A stretch of 63,830 nt of DNA from contig FN649727.1 of NCBI GenBank assembly GCA_000310025.1, positions 1,875,829 to 1,939,658 of the forward strand. The letters are read 5' to 3'. The notes under the pieces were generated by a model that did not search any database, was not told the origin of the DNA, and saw only the letters and a program-made list of their open reading frames with translations. The translations under genes were made by a program, and so were the position numbers. Positions 23,310 through 34,852 of the stretch are shown one piece after another. The DNA comes from Ectocarpus siliculosus. Taxonomy: Eukaryota > Sar > Phaeophyceae > Ectocarpales > Ectocarpaceae. The first letter of the stretch is position 1, and the number at the start of each line of letters is the position of its first letter.

Positions 23310-24336
23310 GGAGCTACGGACAGCGCATGCCGACGTTTTTGGGGCGGATTTTCTCTAATTAGTTGCTCCCCGCGTGTTTTCGGGGTAGCACGAAGGGAAG
23401 GGACGGTGATAGATAGAGGGTCGGGGCGTTGTCCTCTTGCTCACTTTGACAGACCTTGGTTGGAATATCTGTCTTCGTGTGGCAGGCGCGGGGTGGGTGG
23501 GGGGGGGCTCGAACCCTCGAGTTAATAACATGATTCAGCACCGACCACAAAACGCATTTTGCGTGTAGACTCGACCCGCAACCATTTTTGATCTTGCTTG
23601 GTGTGCTCGCGTTGGTGTCCGTGGCTGGGGGAAAAGAAGGCCAGGTGGGAGGAGGAGGAGGAGGAGGGGAAGTTGTTGATTGCTTCTTCCTGGCCATGCG
23701 TGCGAACTGCTCTGTGCTCGTTTTGGTTCCTGCGGGTACCATGACCACTCTCGTTGTTTGTGTGTGTCGTCGTATCGGTTTCTTGCGCCTCTCGGTGTAG
23801 GATTTGGACGCACCAGCGTGTCCCGCACAGGAGGAAGAGCCCTGCAGGTTTTTGTTTTATCTTTTTTTTTCTCCGGTCTCCTTCTGCGCGGTGCTTGCCT
23901 TCGTTACCTTCATTTCGACGGCGAGAAGGATTCAGCCACCCCATGCCCTCGTCGAGGGGCGTTCTAGGTCGAATCTTGTGCATGCACGACGGTTTATCGT
24001 GTGGTACTATGATTACTTGCTTTGAAACTATTTAATCGATGTTTGCGGTGAAGTACAACTAACTATTATAATTATATTCCAATCGTTCTTGGAGGGAAGA
24101 TGGAACAACGAGACGCTGGCTTTTACGAAGCCGTCTCTTGGAAAGCTTAGCTGAGCTGGGCTATCTGAGACGTTGAATGACGGTTGTGAAACTAGAGCAA
24201 GTGCACCGCACTCACTTCCCAACATGGGTGAGCGTCAAAGGTGCAATTCCCCAGAGTGCATTGTGGTCAATGGTACGTTGCAGACCTTCTTGATTGCGTT
24301 CTGCAACGTATGCGGCGGGGCTGGAGCAGCCGCTAG
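23310..24336. other. Downstream region of carrier A up to the LTR element
   Basis: No gene seen. The minus strand at 23500-23530 has GAGGGTTCGAGCCCCC, another tRNA T-arm-like piece without a cloverleaf. A GGA-rich patch is at 23647-23672. The last four bases, CTAG (24333-24336), are the left target-site copy of the retrotransposon. Confidence 0.5.
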
Positions 24337-24807
24337 TGTCACGGTAGCATGAACGGGCGCTAGATACTGAGATTCATTCCGTTTCACGATGGTTTGAGGA
24401 GGGCTAGGGTATACCCCAGGGTGTATCTGAATCATTGGCGGGGCCCCTCTAGAGCTCCGCCTCAACACGTGTTTTGGGTGCTCGCTCACTGTTAACACGG
24501 CCAATCTCGGAAGAGGAACTTTGACCCACCCGCTAAGAAGCAACCAGTCTGTGACTCAAAGCATGAGAGGTAGATCTGGATAGATGTTGCCTAGACCCCC
24601 CTTGCTAATCCCACCTTGATTAGACCCACAGGGCTAGACCCACCGGGATTATATCCCTTTTACTAGCCCCCAACTTGAATCCAATGGTAAGATACCATGA
24701 AACTGACCATGAAATGGATGAAACTAATTGAACCCTAGCCAGTGCTTGTTACGCTAACACATGAGTGAGCTACCCTAAACGATAGCGTTATAACCACTGC
24801 TGTGACA
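24337..24807 (+). repeat. 5' LTR
   Basis: Direct-repeat partner of 33629-34096, bounded by TGTCAC and GTGACA. It carries ACTGCTGTGACA at its end, where the 3' LTR lacks CTG. Confidence 0.95.
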
Positions 24808-24825
24808 TGGTGGAGGAGTAGGGAC
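24808..24825 (+). promoter_or_regulatory. Putative primer-binding site
   Basis: TGGTGGAGGAGTAGGGAC begins directly after the 5' LTR. A leading TGG complements a tRNA 3' CCA end. The matching tRNA is not identified. Confidence 0.5.
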
Positions 24826-26325: not shown

Positions 26326-26505
26326 GTTGATTTCATGGTGCAGCGCTCAAGCTTTGCGGGGCCAACAAAGTACGATGTGGATCGTGGATCGAATACGTGT
26401 ATTATTAGTGGACGTCTAAGTCCTCGTTGCCCTCCTTCGATGTTGCCAGATAAAAAAAGACAACAGAGAACCACGACAGGGAGCGCACCGCACGAAAAAT
26501 AAACG

Positions 26506-26900
26506 ACCATTACACACTCTACCACAGCTGTTCTCCCCGCCCTCGCAACGTAGCAGCAACTCTTTCATGTCTGCCTGGCGCACCCCCTTGGATGTCGCAA
26601 GAAAGAATCAAAACAACCCCAAGAACACAAGCACGACAGGAAGCGCACCGCACGGAAAATAGATGACCATTACATACTCTACCACAGCTGTTCTCCCCGC
26701 CCTCGCGACGTAGCAGCAACTCTTTCATGTCTGCCTGGCGCACCCCCTTGGATGTGACAAGAAGAAACGGTGACAGAGAAAAACACGACAGGAAGCGCAC
26801 CGGAAGAAAAGCAAACAACCATTGCAACATTGCATCACCAGCTGTACCCCTCAACCTTACTCGGTAGCAGCAACAAACTCTCTCATGCCTGCCTGGCGCA
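26506..26900. repeat. Tandem copies of the transposase 3' end
   Basis: Units start near 26506, 26666 and 26818 (ACCATTaCAcACTCTACCAC...), spaced about 160 and 152 bases. The last is the genuine 3' coding end of the transposase (minus strand, RQAGMREFVAATE). The first two are extra, frame-broken copies, and a partial copy precedes them at about 26452. Confidence 0.75.
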
Positions 26901-28345
26901 CCCGCTTAGCGGAATGCTCTGCAATCATCGCCATCTTCGCTTTCGTTAGGAAGAACGCCGCGTCTGCGTTGCCACTCTCATCTGCTGCGGCTTCCAGGAC
27001 GCTGAAGTGAGGCGATAGCTCAGCATAATCGGGTGGAGCACGGCGCTCGGGCCCCGTGTTGTCATCGCCACTGCCCTCCCCTTCGTCCTCCTCATCACCG
27101 CCGGTAGTCACGCGCGTTCCAGCCAGCAGTGCCGCCATTTCGTCCACTGCGTCCAGTCGAAGAGCCTCCGCCACCTCCTCGCCGTCCTCGATGGTAGCCC
27201 ACCCCTGAATCGCCCTCACCGCTTCTCCCTCGACCGGCTTTCCGGGTTCGATGTCGAGTTCTGCGAAGAGCTCGCTGATGTCCTCGTCTACGGTGCCGGC
27301 TCCCTGCTTGTGCGCGTCGCCGACGCTCGTGCTCAAGTTGTTGACGGTCTCCGTGAGAGCCTTCAAGTCAGTCTCGGCGATGCTGAACCGGGTCTTTCCG
27401 TGTTGTTTGGTGAGCTCAGCCGCCATCTCTGGAGGAAGCGTGTCGGCCTTGACAAAGCACCTGGTCCCAGGTAGCAGAAAATGCAATGCATCCGTTTTGG
27501 GGCGGACAAGCGATGTTGGACGGGAGTGACGAAGAAAACTCATAGGGATGCGAGAGAGGACCCTTTCGTAGAAGAGAAAAAATGGGCATATCCGGATGCT
27601 GCAATACTCAGTCGAAAAAAAAGGAAGAAACCTATGCGACACTGTCCGTACAACTGTCCCCACGTATCGCACCACCAAAGCCACGCGCACTTGAGGGAGC
27701 TGGGAAAAAAAACAGCGATGCCACATGTTCAAACCTCACCTGGCGATATCCTGGGCGGTGACGCTGGCCCATGCTTTCTTGAGAAGTTCTGCGGCGTCCC
27801 GCAGATGAGGTTGGTGCCCTTGCGCCAGCCCCATTGTCCCGGCCTTCATCTTGCGGGCTTTCGCCTGGGCGCGAAGTGTGTCAGCCACCAACATAGTTGA
27901 TGTCTTCACATCGAGCCACTCCTTCCTGAAGACGACTTTCGTCTTGGCGATGATCCCCAGATCCATGGGCTGGTGTACGGAGGTGCACAGCGGAGGGTAG
28001 AACTTGATGGTCACTTGCCCCCGGACATCCACGAGATCAGCGTGAGAGGCACAGCCGTCCATCATCAGCAGCACAGGTTCGTGAGTGAAGTGCCGAACGA
28101 ACGGAAGGAAGACTTCAAGCCACCACTTGAGGAACGTCGCAGAGTCGGACCACGCGTTGGCTTGCGAGAAGTACTTAAGAGGTGAAGGCGCGCTCTTGAA
28201 GCAGCGGGGTTCCTTTGCCTTCCCGATGATGGCCATGTCAACCTTCGCAGTGCCGTCGGCATTGCAGCACATGAAGGCAGACAGTCGGCCCTTGAAGTAC
28301 ATGCTCTTTGAACCCCGCGCCGTCTTCCCCCCCTCGCCGTCTTCC
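26857..28345 (-). pseudogene. Pogo/Tigger-type DDE transposase, 5'-truncated
   Basis: Two exons on the minus strand: about 28345-27740 and 27470-26857, joined by a GT-AG intron with matching phase. Exon 1 contains the DDE_1 core: AFMCCNADGTAK, then LLMMDGCASH with the second catalytic Asp, and CTSVHQPMDLGIIAKTK with the third. The first catalytic Asp and the CENP-B-type DNA-binding domain should lie further 5' and are absent, as the frame breaks near 28345 at a duplicated CCGTCTTCCC. Exon 2 is a hydrophilic acidic C-terminal tail (EDEGEGSGDDN). The remnant is not functional as seen. It sits antisense inside the LTR element. Confidence 0.8.
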
Positions 28346-28436: not shown

Positions 28437-28876
28437 TCGTTACCATACTTCCCTGCCGATCCATTATTTCTGTGTCAGGTGCAAAAACATGGATTTCATC
28501 ACCAACACCTCGTACACCCGAACCATAACGACCGTAGACAGCAGGGTCATTCGGAAACATTATGACGGAAACCCGCAGCAAGACACAACGACCTTTACCG
28601 TCANNNNNNNNNNNNNNNNNNNNNNNNNNNNNNNNNNNNNNNNNNNNNNNNNNNNNNNNNNNNNNNNNNNNNNNNNNNNNNNNNNNNNNNNNNNNNNNNN
28701 NNNTGTGGTTGAACGTGACGGTAAAGGTCGTTGTGTCTTGCTGCTGGTTTCCGTCATAATGTTTCCGAATGACCCTGCTGTCTACGGTCGTCATGGTTCG
28801 GGTGTACGAGGTGTTGGTGATGGAATCCATGTTTTTGCACCTGCCACAGAAATAATGGATCGGCAAGTACACAGGT
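28437..28876. repeat. Long inverted repeat flanking the assembly gap
   Basis: The left arm (about 28437-28603) and right arm (about 28716-28876) are near-exact reverse complements over roughly 160 bases, for example CCGATCCATTATTTCTGTG against CACAGAAATAATGGATCGG. A 100-base N run (28604-28703) separates them. The right arm abuts the RT remnant. It may be a real hairpin that collapsed the assembly or a chimeric join. Confidence 0.85.
28604..28703. other. Assembly gap (100 N)
   Basis: A run of exactly 100 N, the usual placeholder for a gap of unknown size, inside the LTR element between the arms of an inverted repeat. Confidence 1.
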
Positions 28877-28882
28877 CACTTC

Positions 28883-29620
28883 GTGAAAAGCGAATTTCTA
28901 TTGCCAGAGCTCGAGTTCTTAGGGGTCATGGTCGGAAGGGATGGAACTCGACCAGCACCATCGAAAGTGACAGCCACACAAGAAATGGAAATGCCGTCGA
29001 CGGTGAGAGAGTTGAGGTCCTTCCTTGGACTAGCCAACTATTTGAGGGGGTTCGTACCCAACTTTAGCGCCATCGCCGCTCCACTATCAGACATCCTGAG
29101 AAACAAGGAATTTAGTTCTAAACGAGCCCGTAACGAACGAGTCGTCATGAGACCTCCACAAATTGAGGCGTATATGAAACTCGTGGAGAAACTGACCACA
29201 TACCCAGTGCTGGTACTACGTAATTGGCTGGAACCCTTCACGCTACATACGGATGCCAGCTTGATCGCGGCAGGGTCAGTCCTGACACAGCAGGTGGAGA
29301 ACAGAGAGGCTCCGGTCGGATACGCCAGTAAAAGGTTGTCCAGGTCAGAGCAAAAACTGTCGTCAAACGATCGGGAGGTTCTGGGAGTGTTGTATGCATT
29401 AGACCATTTCAAGATTTACCTTCAGCACCGTCAGTTCACTCTCATCACGGACTGTGCGGCCCTGATGTGGCTCTTCACTAGCCAAAACCTATCGTCAAAG
29501 ATGCACCGTTGGGCGCTAAAGATGATGGCGTATGATATGGTCTTGAAGTGGAGAAGGGGAACAGACCATGTCGTTCCAGACGCTCTCTCTAGACTCCGGC
29601 GGAAAGGCTCTGGCGAACCC
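28883..29620 (+). pseudogene. Ty3/gypsy RT C-terminus and RNase H
   Basis: An open frame starts mid-domain with FVKSEFLLPELEFLGVMVG, the RT palm-to-thumb junction of Ty3/gypsy. The YxDD active-site part of RT is missing. ELRSFLGLANYLRGFVPNF is the connection. RNase H follows, with its acidic residues in LHTDAS, NDREVLGVLYALDHFKIYL and LITDCAALMWLF, ending at HVVPDALSRL. The frame runs on without a stop into the next region. Confidence 0.9.
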
Positions 29621-29829
29621 GATGTCGACACCACATTACCGGGTGATGGAGCTGGCGAAGTAAGGGGGAGCGGGCCGGCAGGACCAGTGTTGGAAGGGGT
29701 TCCTCTCCAAAGGATGGCACAATCACAACTTGCGGAAGAAGAGGAGAGAAGTGACTTACAACCGGAGTCAGTCATGCTCAACAAGGAAGACATCAAACTC
29801 GATGGAATCTGCTTAGCTGACCTGGGGCC

Positions 29830-31020
29830 AACAGAGGTCGATGACAGAGAAGTGGAGAATCTCAGTGTGTTCTATGCATTGCAGATCACACCTGATGCGT
29901 TGACACCGAGGGACGAGGAGTACGTAGCGGCGTATCAACAAGCACAAGGTCTCTTTACACTAAGACAGCCGAGGGCGGCTGTTCTCGGTCGAGGGGCAGG
30001 TGGAGCATTACAAGCCGTTGAGGGTATGCTGGACGTAACATGTGTGATTGACTCTGATTGGAAAACCATGGAATGCATCAGAGTCAACGGAGGAGCCGGT
30101 GATGCGACATTGATTCGTCAGAGTCCGACAAACGCCACAAAATCCTGGAGTATAAACCCGAAATCCTCATTGGCAATGCGTGCGCCATCGAGGATGGTCC
30201 AGACGAAGGAGCGAGGACAGGGCGAAATGCAGACAACATTGTGCAGATTTTCGTGTCGTCCCCCATCCAGATTCTGGTAATGGAGAGTCCAGTAGGCTTT
30301 GCAGGGTCAGAGAGATGGAAGAACATTCTTCACCCAGAACTGCACCTGGCGGGCTGTGAAACGGCAACAGCGTCTCTGTCAGCGACAGCAGTCGGGATAC
30401 CCACAACAAAACGGAGAGTGTTTGTGGTAGCAGTCAAGAAGAGCGGGGATCCCAATTTGACAGCTAAACTATCTCAGTGGAAGAAGAATGTGGAGAGAAC
30501 CGCACCGTCGACACCCTCGGTGCCTTTTTGAGAAGACAGGGATGCTTCTTCTTGAAACGGGGACGTCAGAACAAGGAGATATTCTCGTTTGAGGAGCCGG
30601 TGGTGACGGTTACAAGGGAACACATCATGGGCCGTAAACCCCTATCAACAGCTTTTACGGCACACCCCAACGACGCAGGGTAGTTGTAGAAGCGCAAGAG
30701 CTATCGTGGAAAGATTACGTGAAGCTAACCACCAACCGGGACAACTACGAGGTACCACCAACTCTGAGAAGATGCGATGTAGCTCGAGTGATGCAAGAGC
30801 ACACATTAGCGCCAATGCTGAGAGAAGTTCTGAATCTCCTACAACTGAAAGGAAGGCCGAAGCGTCTAATGGATGGTAAAAAGAACGCAGAGACAGACCA
30901 CACCAAACAAGTAGACGAAGATCTGCTCATCGACTTGGCCAGCTTGTATCAGGAAGATGCGACGGTGGCGGTGGTGACTAGGGTAGTTCCGTCGACCGTC
31001 ACGTCGACCGCACACGTTTT
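29830..31020 (+). pseudogene. Cytosine-5 DNA methyltransferase-like domain in the retroelement, frameshifted
   Basis: Between RNase H and integrase. The first frame gives AAVLGRGAGGALQAVEG (29975-30025), like C5-MTase motif I, then CVIDSDWKTMECIRVN (motif II). After a frame change near 30120 come EILIGNACAIEDG (possible motif IV with the Cys), IVQIFVSSPIQILVMESP (like the motif V 'ENV' segment) and GIPTTKRRVFVVAV (30393-30434, motif VIII region, normally QxRxR). After another change near 30500 come GAFLRRQGCFFLKRGRQ and IFSFEEPVVTVTREH (motif IX), then a Leu-rich end. The order and spacing fit PF00145. Substituted key motifs and at least three frame changes mean this copy is dead. Identity is from pattern reading only; an unrelated linker is the alternative. 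Confidence 0.6.
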
Positions 31021-31023
31021 AAG

Positions 31024-32818
31024 GTGACCCCGGCGGAGACTCGGAGTGCGGCTCGACGAGCTCGACAGCCGACACTCACTCCACCCACCATAGCGAAGCC
31101 GACGACCTCTTCAGAGAAGGAGACCGTGGTGCAAAAACCAGAGAGACGATCAGTGTCGACAGAGAGCTCTTCTACAACACCATCGAGGTACGACCCAGAA
31201 ACATCGCAACCACGGTTGGAACGGCCAGACAACGACATCCCCCTCTGTCGAGGGCATTCCGAACAGTTGGAACAAATGGAGCGTGTCTTGCGCGACGGTG
31301 CCCAACTAAAAAGGACTCAACAGGAAGACTTGAGGTTGAAACCCATCCGGGACAATTTGGAGAACGGCGAAGGAGAGCAAGCTGATTATATCCTGGACGA
31401 TCAAGGTCTACTTTGGTTTGCGCCGAGAGGGGCGGCACATGTTGTAGCCCTACCTCGCAAGCTGGTGTCTGCAGTACTGGCCCTGGCACATGGCACCTTT
31501 GGACATCCGGGGATAGCTCGCACTACTATCATTGTGGCGGACAAGTACCACTGGCCATCGCTGAAGAAAGATGTGCGAGACTCATGTCGATGCCGTATGA
31601 GAAAAAGACAGTGGAGCAAACAAATTCACATGTTACCGGCACGATTCTTGCGTCCATGGGAAGTCTTGGAGATGGACATTCTTGACATGAAGTTGACATC
31701 GAACAAGGGCAACAGGTACTTGCTGGTGATAGTGGATCGACCAACCAAGTTCCTCTTCGCTTTCCCGCTTCCCACGAAGGAAACTTTGGGAGTCAGCAAG
31801 AAATTGTTGGAGCTCATCCTCACCTTCGGACTACCCATATAAGTGCGCTGTGATCCGGGGGCAGAAAACACCTCGGCGATCATGGAACACCTGTGCCGGT
31901 GGCTCAAAATATCCCTCGACTTTGGACCGACCAACCATCCTAGAGGACAGGGAACAGTCGAGAGGATGGGAGCGGTGCTGCAAGAGATGCTGTCGGAGCT
32001 CTGCAGGCATGACCGAACAGGTGGGATGAGTATGTGGCAGTGGTCGCTTGGGCCCATCGTACGACGCCGGATGAGAGCCTTCCAAACAAAGAGTCAGCAT
32101 ACCAACTGCTCTTTGGACGGGCGCCAAGGACATCGTTTGATCACATGTCGCCATCACTAGACAACTCGGGTCCAGCATTGCGTTGGAAAGGACGGTGGAG
32201 GAAACGAGAAGGAAGACTGTGGAAGTGATGCAAGTGCTAAAAGTGCGACAGGAAAATCGGAATAGACACCGCGAACTCCAGAATGCGAGGATCAAACGTG
32301 CATCACCAGGCACCAAGGCTAAGGTGGGCGACAAGGTATTGGTCAAGGAGAGCGCAAGCACACTTTACCGGGATGGCGTCCACCCTAAACTTGCCCATGA
32401 CCACTTCACAGGACCGTGGCAAGTCGTGCACGTCGTGCGAGAGGGGTTGAGCTTTACTGTAAGACTGCATGGACGTCAAATCCGCCAGAGGACGGTGGCA
32501 GCCACGGACTTCAAGCCGTTTCATTCTCGACCACAAGACATCAGACATCCATTCGAAGATGAGTTTGGTCATTTTGTATGGTCGCCGGATTTAGGATTAG
32601 CTAAAGACTCCGTCGTCGCGGCACCTCTGTATACTTTGGTGAATAGACGGGTGGTCCAGGGCGCTGAAGGAATAGCGTCCGCATGGGCATGGGAGTATAG
32701 AGGAAAGAATCAGGATGGCACCACCTCTCCGTGGATCACCGAAGACACTGCCAGGGACAGTTTCTCGCCTCTGCAACTTGATGTTTTTCTGCCCTGTGGG
32801 AAGACTTTCACGGGGTGA
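31024..32818 (+). pseudogene. Ty3/gypsy integrase, one stop and two frameshifts
   Basis: The N-terminal zinc domain shows LALAHGTFGHPG (His pair) and DSCRCRMRKR, where the usual CxxC is shortened to CxC. The catalytic core has LEMDILDMKL (first Asp), RCDPGAENTS (second Asp) and GQGTVERM (Glu). A TAA at 31840-31842 splits the core right before the second Asp. Frame changes near 32030 and 32180 follow. The last frame (32183-32818) is the C-terminal DNA-binding part (GDKVLVKESAS, FTGPWQVVHVV) and a Trp-rich end that could be chromodomain-like. Confidence 0.85.
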
Positions 32819-33628: not shown

Positions 33629-34096
33629 TGTCACGGTAGCATGAACGGGCGCTAGATACTGAGATTCATTCCGTTTCACGATGGTTTGAGGAGGGCTAGC
33701 GTATACCCCAGGGTGTACCTGAATCATTGGCGGGGCCCCTCTAGAGCTCCGCCTCAACACGTGTTTTGGGTGATCGCTCACTGTTAACACGGCCAATCTC
33801 GGAAGAGGAACTTTGACCCACCCGCTAAGAAGCAACCAGTCTGTGACTCAAAGCATGAGAGGTAGATCTGGACAGATGTTGCCTAGACCCCCCTTGCTAA
33901 TCCCACCTTGATTAGACCCACAGGGCTAGACCCACCGGGATTATATCCCTTTTACCAGCCCCCATCTTGAATCCAATGGTAAGATACCATGAAACTGACC
34001 ATGAAATGGATGAAACTAATTGAACCCTAGCCAGTGCTTGTTACGCTAACACATGAGTGAGCTACCCTAAGCGATAGCGTTATAACCACTGTGACA
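33629..34096 (+). repeat. 3' LTR
   Basis: Near-identical partner of the 5' LTR, followed by CTAG (34097-34100), the right target-site copy. Confidence 0.95.
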
Positions 34097-34852
34097 CTAG
34101 CTCGTGAAACGAAACCAGCTCCACGGCTGTAACACACCAATTGCTTAGATTGGTTCGATTCGCCCCATGTCGTGATCGATCCCCAGACCTTATTGTTCAG
34201 CGCATTTTGTTTGTGCGAAGTGCTTTTTCTGGACAGCTCTCCCTGTCTCACTCGACACAGTAGCACTCGACGACGACATGGGGGGGCTCGTTACACCTTG
34301 CACCTTTGATAGCAGAGCTCCAGGAAGACCGGCCCCCTTTCGTGCTGCAAGTGCCGTGTTGGTTTAGCAACAACTAACAATAAACGTGTACGGTTCATGC
34401 ACCACCAAGAAATCCGTGACCAGAAATACGAAAAAAACTGCATGACAAAAACCACGTGACGCATGGGCTCTCTATTCAACCACCAAGAAATCCCTACCTG
34501 CAAAGAACGAAAAAACTATTACGTGACGGGTTCTCTATTCCAAGAGAACCCTATCTCCTGGAGCATACTATTGCAAGACACAACAAAACAAACTGGTCCC
34601 CTAGGCTATCCCACTGCTGCACTACAAGGAAGGGGAGAGAGTCTTGGAGGAAGCGGTTCCCAACGGTAATATCAACGAGACGCGCACACGCTCATCCCTG
34701 CAGGGTTCTTCCATAGGACCGCTCAATACCACCGCCAAGAGGGCTCTCGCGCTTCAGTCCCATCAATTGGACAACAAAGACTCGAAAAATTTTAGCCGGG
34801 TCACCTCTCTTCGACGTTCCATCAATATAGCCCTCTGCCTGAGTTTTCATTC
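34097..34852. other. Region between the LTR element and carrier C
   Basis: No gene seen. ATGCACCACCAAGAAATCC (34397) and CAACCACCAAGAAATCCCTA (34479) form a short direct duplication. It is the 3' flank of minus-strand carrier C. Confidence 0.5.

Follow-up and report, generated by a model that had tools for sequence, protein, structure and literature searches.

Why should a retrotransposon of a brown alga, a lineage mostly reported to be without 5-methylcytosine (5mC), carry what looks like a cytosine methyltransferase? The question is raised by a 63,830-bp stretch of the Ectocarpus siliculosus genome (forward strand of contig FN649727.1, assembly GCA_000310025.1, positions 1,875,829 to 1,939,658), referred to here as the window, which contains a long terminal repeat (LTR) retrotransposon of the Ty3/Gypsy group. 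A first, sequence-only reading of this DNA had proposed a domain resembling cytosine-5 (C5) methyltransferases between the RNase H and integrase of the element, in a broken copy, as a source of 5mC that could protect or disguise the element's own DNA. We find that a domain with the predicted fold of C5-methyltransferases is part of the polymerase polyprotein (Pol) of one LTR Gypsy lineage, and that it has been kept by selection during divergence to about 34–45% identity. Its role is a separate matter, and we favor one in which methylation plays little part.

The domain and its predicted fold

The window copy of the domain and its recognizable parts are as follows.

29975..30850, plus strand: C5-methyltransferase-fold domain, broken, passing through frames 2, 1, 3 and 2 in turn; located with the natural pol frame of a relative (L036) as tblastn query, by its peptides, and by the fold of a relative
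29987..30004, plus strand: motif I-like GRGAGG, which hhalign pairs with FAGIGG of Dcm; GxGG is invariant in five of five domains
29987-30025, frame 2: peptide GRGAGGALQAVEG, inspected in the sequence, as were the four peptides listed next
30041-30064, frame 2: peptide CVIDSDWK
30265-30291, frame 1: peptide IQILVMESP
30394-30435, frame 1: peptide GIPTTKRRVFVVAV
30525-30569, frame 3: peptide FLRRQGCFFLKRGRQ
30169..30183, plus strand: motif IV-like IGNAC, with the Cys codon at 30181-30183; hhalign pairs it with the PC of Dcm-type enzymes
30280..30291, plus strand: motif VI-like MESP (canonical ENV); the Glu is kept in relatives
30403..30417, plus strand: motif VIII-like TTKRR (canonical QxRxR); the last Arg is kept in relatives
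30591..30617, plus strand, frame 3: motif IX-like EEPVVTVTR, inspected in the sequence and similar in relatives
30809..30832, plus strand: motif X-like APMLREVL, inspected in the sequence and PPMLRE-like in relatives

All six peptides on which the sequence-only reading was built are present, in the same order and in three frames, and the domain is flanked, as had been claimed, by RNase H (PF17917, E 1.3e-28) and by the zinc-binding domain of integrase (PF17921, E 3.2e-10, above its cut-off). The order of the proposed motifs holds, but the ENV-like MESP had been assigned to motif V and is motif VI, and both the motif IV-like IGNAC and the motif X-like APMLREVL had been overlooked. Motif IV is the site of the catalytic cysteine in C5-methyltransferases. 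The departures from canonical residues that had been pointed out, ESP and TTKRR, are real, but they are common to other copies; decay of the window copy was considered as their cause and rejected, as natural copies have them too.

On its own the window piece does not match the Pfam family of these enzymes significantly (PF00145, E 0.24 and 11.2 bits against a cut-off of 22), so the identification rests on natural relatives, on the predicted fold, on profile comparison, and on PHROG hits. The predicted structure of one relative has, in its catalytic domain, the overall fold of C5-methyltransferases, and aligns with M.HaeIII, M.HhaI, DNMT1 and DNMT2 at 11–17% identity; the domain is highly diverged and its structural matches to the known groups are nearly tied. 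A second structure model was poor, yet C5-methyltransferases were its first matches. Profile comparison with hhalign aligned motifs I, IV, VI and VIII to their Dcm-type counterparts, while motifs IX and X were placed by alignment inspection only; the six motifs run in order. PHROG matches likewise point to C5-methyltransferases. Relatives devoid of any methyltransferase fold would have refuted the sequence-only reading; this outcome did not occur, as the fold is predicted in the relative modeled.

It is very improbable that the resemblance is due to chance, or to another Rossmann-like domain such as a degenerate second RNase H or a spacer. Such an explanation could draw on the low scores of individual sequences: no relative scored passes the PF00145 cut-off (the best reaches 13.5 bits, and P0009 10.9), and NCBIfam gave weak hits in two of seven proteins, namely dcm for P0013 (E 0.0077) and an unrelated viral family for L026. 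For L026, neither database returned more than a weak match to a seadornavirus protein (E 0.023 in Pfam, 0.011 in NCBIfam). A search of PDB sequences with a five-sequence profile returned one match, to an unrelated protein at E 0.99, as expected by chance. Against it, fold, motif order and spacing, profile comparison, and PHROG hits converge on C5-methyltransferases, which even the poor second model ranks first. A degenerate second RNase H was rejected, its fold and motifs being different. The domain, to judge from these models and alignments, almost certainly has a C5-methyltransferase fold.

Relatives, selection, and capture

Genome matches were found with a 142-residue piece of the window domain across the 189-Mb assembly, and the counts are lower bounds: at least 45 matches, at least 19 of them at 84% identity or more (in at least 16 places) and at least 26 at 30–59%. 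Some relatives have natural open frames, of 1807, 1649 and 1943 aa, in which the domain can be read without mending; a frame of 2963 aa (C476) crosses a stretch of N and was excluded. We distinguish subfamily A, to which the window copy belongs together with L036 and L037; subfamily B (L023, L024, L025); and subfamily C, consisting of L026, which is the same copy as L044, and of L045–L047, each with one stop within the domain. Domain identity is 45% between A and B and 34% between C and either of them. In the natural frames of all three (L036, L023, L026), reverse transcriptase (RT), RNase H, zinc-binding integrase domain, and integrase core exceed their Pfam cut-offs, and the domain lies between RNase H and integrase. 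Two diverged single relatives, L041 (G000:C31) and L040 (G000:C147:66000-71000), at 54% and 43% identity to the window piece, are of uncertain subfamily placement.

Protein database searches returned 8, 11 and 16 proteins in overlapping sets, drawn from EukProt, Logan and ENA among others, and the only organism named among them is Ectocarpus sp. CCAP 1310/34 (P0006, P0007, P0018). Those with precomputed domains bear RT, RNase H or integrase. P0003 and P0005 combine RT, RNase H, integrase and the domain in a single open frame; P0001 is also a single open frame, with an integrase core marginally under its cut-off. No stand-alone methyltransferase was recognizable among the 16 proteins of a profile search (E up to 10; the 7994 candidates sharing most words were scored). 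Profile scans of viral and genome contigs yielded 73 and 385 pattern stretches, respectively, none of them a relative, and hence no donor.

The age of the capture can be approached through a sister group of Gypsy elements, D, found by searching with the RT–RNase H of L036. Group D is as similar to L036 over this region (45–48% identity) as is subfamily C (45–48%), and reaches 49–51% in integrase (ten places) compared with 57–60% for C. RNase H and integrase are separated by 622–629 aa in A (five places), 671 in B (two) and 542–547 in C (two), versus 230–252 aa in all 15 places measured in D (G000:C156:88406-90778, C16:6699699-6702071 and thirteen more); several of the D places have long open frames. 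The three domain searches of the genome list no match at any of these D places. With a stretch too short and no listed match, D is most likely without the domain, and A, B and C would most simply share one capture; judged from the sequences, a single capture in their common ancestor is quite probable. An origin from DNMT3 was rejected as a claim, since near-tied structural matches cannot resolve it; no DNMT3-labelled row stands among the 50 VIA rows listed, which excludes nothing.

Whether the domain has been maintained was assessed by pairwise ratios of nonsynonymous to synonymous change (dN/dS; Nei–Gojobori), with A copies compared to L036. Because several loci overlap one genomic copy (e.g., L011 and L053), the rows for dN/dS, for residues, and for the mutation analysis below are not independent. 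The median for the domain in A is 0.30 (15 rows, 0.18–0.65); the replication enzymes all have lower medians, RT at 0.09 (15 rows), RNase H at 0.21 (11) and integrase at 0.07 (9). These medians leave out rows under 74% identity for the domain, 84% for RT and RNase H, and 89% for integrase; the left-out rows with finite dS include L015 RT at 0.52 (four stops), L004 RNase H at 0.48 (one stop) and L067 integrase at 0.52 (three stops), and rows with saturated dS yield no ratio. In B, over pairs without multiple stops and with finite dS, the domain gave 0.15 and 0.18 in two more diverged pairs and 0.48 and 0.55 in close copies. In C it gave 0.26 over 110 codons in one pair and 0.17–0.51 among close copies, and integrase (0.00–0.74) was no lower than the domain. 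The close copies point to weaker constraint than the more diverged pairs. As estimated from these comparisons, the domain is under purifying selection, although in A it is held less tightly than RT or integrase.

Catalysis or nucleic-acid handling

What is being selected for? Among the A, B and database sequences, 39 of 290 alignment columns are invariant. Fourteen of 15 keep the motif IV Cys (the exception, P0006, reads PWGAYPF), while Glu of motif VI (16 of 16) and the final Arg of motif VIII (15 of 15) are without exception; these two residues are also found in L026. The residue before the Cys is Ala in 13 and Val in one (P0002) of the 14, never Pro, so that none of them has the canonical Pro-Cys. 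In motif VIII of this set, Gln is replaced by Thr and the first Arg by Lys. Genome copies L018, L031, L033 and L064 depart at the motif VI Glu or the last motif VIII Arg. Of the genome rows spanning motif IV, 14 of 15 from A have the Cys (L009 has Tyr), as do five of eight from B (not L056, L033 and L070). None of the six from C has it; these read CNVE or CNVG, and the catalytic loop of C is eight residues shorter. L064, a diverged C relative, reads YNLES, lacking the Cys, and carries Asp where motif VI has Glu; P0023, a database relative at 84% identity, reads CNVER, again without the Cys. With the Cys missing from the C rows, L064 and P0023, and the loop shortened, subfamily C is most likely unable to perform the usual methyltransferase chemistry, and the motifs make catalysis by the domain in general doubtful.

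The strongest rival to a noncatalytic role holds that in A and B the domain works as a DNA cytosine methyltransferase and marks the complementary DNA (cDNA) or the new insertion, with C a derived form that has lost activity. In its favor are the near-universal Cys and Glu in A, B and the database sequences, a near-complete fold that includes motif IX- and X-like stretches, and the reading MENP, nearer to ENV, at motif VI of P0013 and of genome copy L004. There is also precedent, DNMT3 domains of SymbioDIRS elements being able to methylate CG in yeast (PMC5890265, in its available text). The loss of Pro before each of the 14 cysteines, the two substitutions in motif VIII, and the three B rows without Cys argue against it.

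Mutation offers a further view, as heavy methylation is expected to leave a strong excess of C-to-T change at its target context. The analysis used 19, 4 and 8 loci of A, B and C for CpG ratios, and 17, 2 and 5 for context rates. In A, C/T differences affect 498 of 4718 CG sites (0.106), compared with 0.087 for CC, 0.086 for CT and 0.050 for CA; in B the CG rate is 0.057 against 0.023–0.052 in other contexts, and in C it is 0.051 against 0.046–0.055. CpG sites exceed other C sites 1.40-fold in A and 1.47-fold in B but not in C (0.97), the baseline being other contexts in the same copies. The most affected trinucleotides are GCG in A (130/929) and ACA in C (39/306), at 1.7 and 2.5 times their respective group means, and CCT in B (22/292). 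Any methylation-type CpG scar in A and B, although in the direction expected of an active enzyme, is weak at most: the excess is 1.4- to 1.5-fold over an internal baseline only, and heavy methylation leaves far more.

The host provides little else that could write or maintain such a mark. In a PF00145 search of the whole genome, the element domains were not recovered, and the only matches over the cut-off were two pieces of one gene (L042, G000:C2:8122500-8129500) with the motifs GSPPCQPF, LENVQGFE and QLGIPNSRLRYY, which we take from these to be DNMT2-like. The premise of the sequence-only reading, that the host has no other cytosine methyltransferase, agrees with this result. The published picture of brown algae is mixed. 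The available text of a 2026 study reports DNMT2 homologues and no other DNA methyltransferase in brown algae and infers an early loss of DNA methylation (PMC13076208), and 5mC is described as negligible in Ectocarpus, transposons included (PMC12477816, available text), which also speaks against an active domain in A and B. The matter is not settled, since DNMT1 orthologues are mentioned for early-branching brown algae (PMC12344493, in part) and, in the kelp Saccharina japonica, about 1.4% of cytosines are given as methylated, mainly in CHH context (PMC6916402, in part), a mark that would need an enzyme source and in this respect favors activity. On balance we regard an active DNA methyltransferase in A and B as rather unlikely, and the proposal of a working 5mC source that protects or disguises the element is not supported: motif IV is unusual in all relatives read, the C rows lack the Cys, and the mutational excess is weak at most. 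Less probable still is an RNA 5-methylcytosine methyltransferase, DNMT2-like in its action, that would modify the element's RNA or primer tRNA during packaging or reverse transcription.

The position beside RNase H and integrase, the preserved fold, and the tolerance of a lost Cys lead us to favor a mainly noncatalytic role in nucleic-acid handling within Pol over heritable methylation, at a probability of roughly 0.55. The domain may grip nucleic acid inside Pol, either nascent cDNA or target DNA beside the integrase and the Tudor-like C-terminus, relying for this on its fold and on some of the active site. Any remaining methyl transfer would be confined to A and B and would target the nucleic acid of the element itself as it replicates. 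Since no maintenance enzyme is evident in the host, little heritable 5mC would result. In subfamily C the chemistry would most likely have been lost and the domain retained. What weighs against this preference is that Cys and Glu are kept in most A and B sequences, which gives methylation of the element's nucleic acid by these forms a real chance. A more specific version is tentative and carries distinctly less than even odds: a captured DNA cytosine methyltransferase would have become a pseudo-methyltransferase, a clamp holding cDNA or target DNA next to integrase and a Tudor-like reader. Selection would have kept it in algae that largely lost cytosine methylation, A and B being intermediate stages and C the fully noncatalytic outcome.

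Retrotransposons with captured cytosine methyltransferases are known, as the sequence-only reading had stated. The available text of de Mendoza et al. (2018; PMC5890265) describes DNMTs in LINE and DIRS elements of Symbiodinium and in an LTR Gypsy element of Klebsormidium, and contains no occurrence of Ectocarpus, stramenopile or brown alga. In that study SymbioDIRS proved active, and the results for the other elements were inconclusive; PMC12344493 again places element-borne methyltransferases in streptophytes and dinoflagellates. A loose earlier mention does exist, in the form of a passing remark in an opinion paper on DAM- and DCM-encoding retrotransposons in stramenopiles among others (PMC6338049, in part). 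The closest counterpart is KnitGypsy-Dnmt3 of Klebsormidium nitens, whose C5-methyltransferase domain likewise lies within an LTR Gypsy Pol frame and evolves under purifying selection (Ka/Ks < 0.2 in that study). There the domain is related to DNMT3 and conserves the key residues, the host has cytosine methylation, and the repeats are arranged in a DIRS-like manner, whereas the window family has an altered motif IV, a subfamily without the Cys, a sequence too diverged to place, and the host background described above. SymbioLINE-Dnmt and SymbioDIRS-Dnmt3 are also retrotransposons bearing a C5-methyltransferase domain, but of LINE and DIRS rather than LTR Gypsy type, with functionally conserved key positions. 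From M.HaeIII, M.HhaI, DNMT1 and DNMT2, with PC(Q), ENV and QxRxR, the family differs in reading NAC, ESP or ECP, and TxKxR or SxRxR.

Within Ectocarpus, the Gypsy-10_Ec32 lineage is a Ty3/Gypsy lineage with a C-terminal Tudor domain, for which the available text of PMC12477816 mentions no C5-methyltransferase domain. Tudor matches (PF21743) occur at the C-terminus of three of three natural relatives (E 0.0022–0.099) and in two of four database polyproteins (best E 9.2e-5), all below the cut-off, with none in P0001 or P0004; by the description and the Tudor-like ends, rather than by sequence, the window family is probably, but not surely, of the same lineage. Another mobile element of this algal group, Sola1-1_Ec32, also carries a methyltransferase, but is a DNA transposon whose enzyme is of the N4/N6 class and encoded by a separate accessory gene with a ParB-like domain (PMC12477816, in part). 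Relative to the open-licence literature, four points are likely new: the host lineage, the occurrence in a Gypsy lineage of Tudor type, the unusual catalytic motif, and the retention without Cys. The family would apparently add an independent instance of a Gypsy element acquiring a methyltransferase, here in an element that also has a Tudor-like reader domain. Either brown algae possess a cytosine methyltransferase that may go unnoticed in surveys, as its score falls under the usual Pfam cut-off, or a DNA methyltransferase has been repurposed without methylation.

The element surrounding the domain

The remaining features of the element in the window are listed here.

24333-24336 and 34097-34100, flanking the LTR element on both sides: 4-bp target repeat CTAG, inspected in the sequence
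24337..24807, plus strand: 5' LTR (TGTCAC...GTGACA), 471 bp, from blastn of the LTR pair, with ends inspected by eye
24808..24825, plus strand: candidate primer-binding site (TGG...), abutting the 5' LTR, by which its role is suggested
27739..28302, minus strand: remnant of a DDE_1 transposase (PF03184, E 4.8e-30), foreign and nested in the LTR element
28867..29640, plus strand: end of RT and RNase H (RNase H models at about 29153-29533; PF17917, as above, and PF17919, E 1.1e-23)
31450..32010, plus strand: integrase zinc-binding domain (31453-31590; PF17921) and damaged integrase core (PF00665), also by homology to L036
32965..33035, plus strand: Tudor-like C-terminal stretch, split over two frames, recognized by its peptides; the corresponding region of relatives matches PF21743
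33622..33628, plus strand: candidate polypurine tract, seven G in a row, whose position before the 3' LTR suggests its role
33629..34096, plus strand: 3' LTR, 468 bp, from blastn of the LTR pair

The two LTRs are identical at 457 of 464 bases aligned by blastn. The copy between them is heavily damaged: its match to L036's natural pol frame begins only at 28867, in the second half of RT, and from there the order is RT end, RNase H, methyltransferase-like domain, integrase, and Tudor-like end. The stretch 28867..29640 is 93% identical to L036 at the DNA level, and the integrase core of this copy scores under its cut-off (PF00665, E 1.1e-4, 22.8 bits against 32.6). Adjoining the DDE_1 remnant, a minus-strand open reading frame at 26860-27732 had no match in a Pfam search.

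Upstream of the pol homology lies a run of 100 N (28604-28703), bracketed by a 150-bp inverted repeat (28454-28603 and 28716-28865; 97% complementary), which may represent either transposon ends or an assembly fold-back. Also within the LTR element are two direct repeats of 135 bp (26469-26603 and 26629-26763), 93% alike, whose starts are 160 bp apart.
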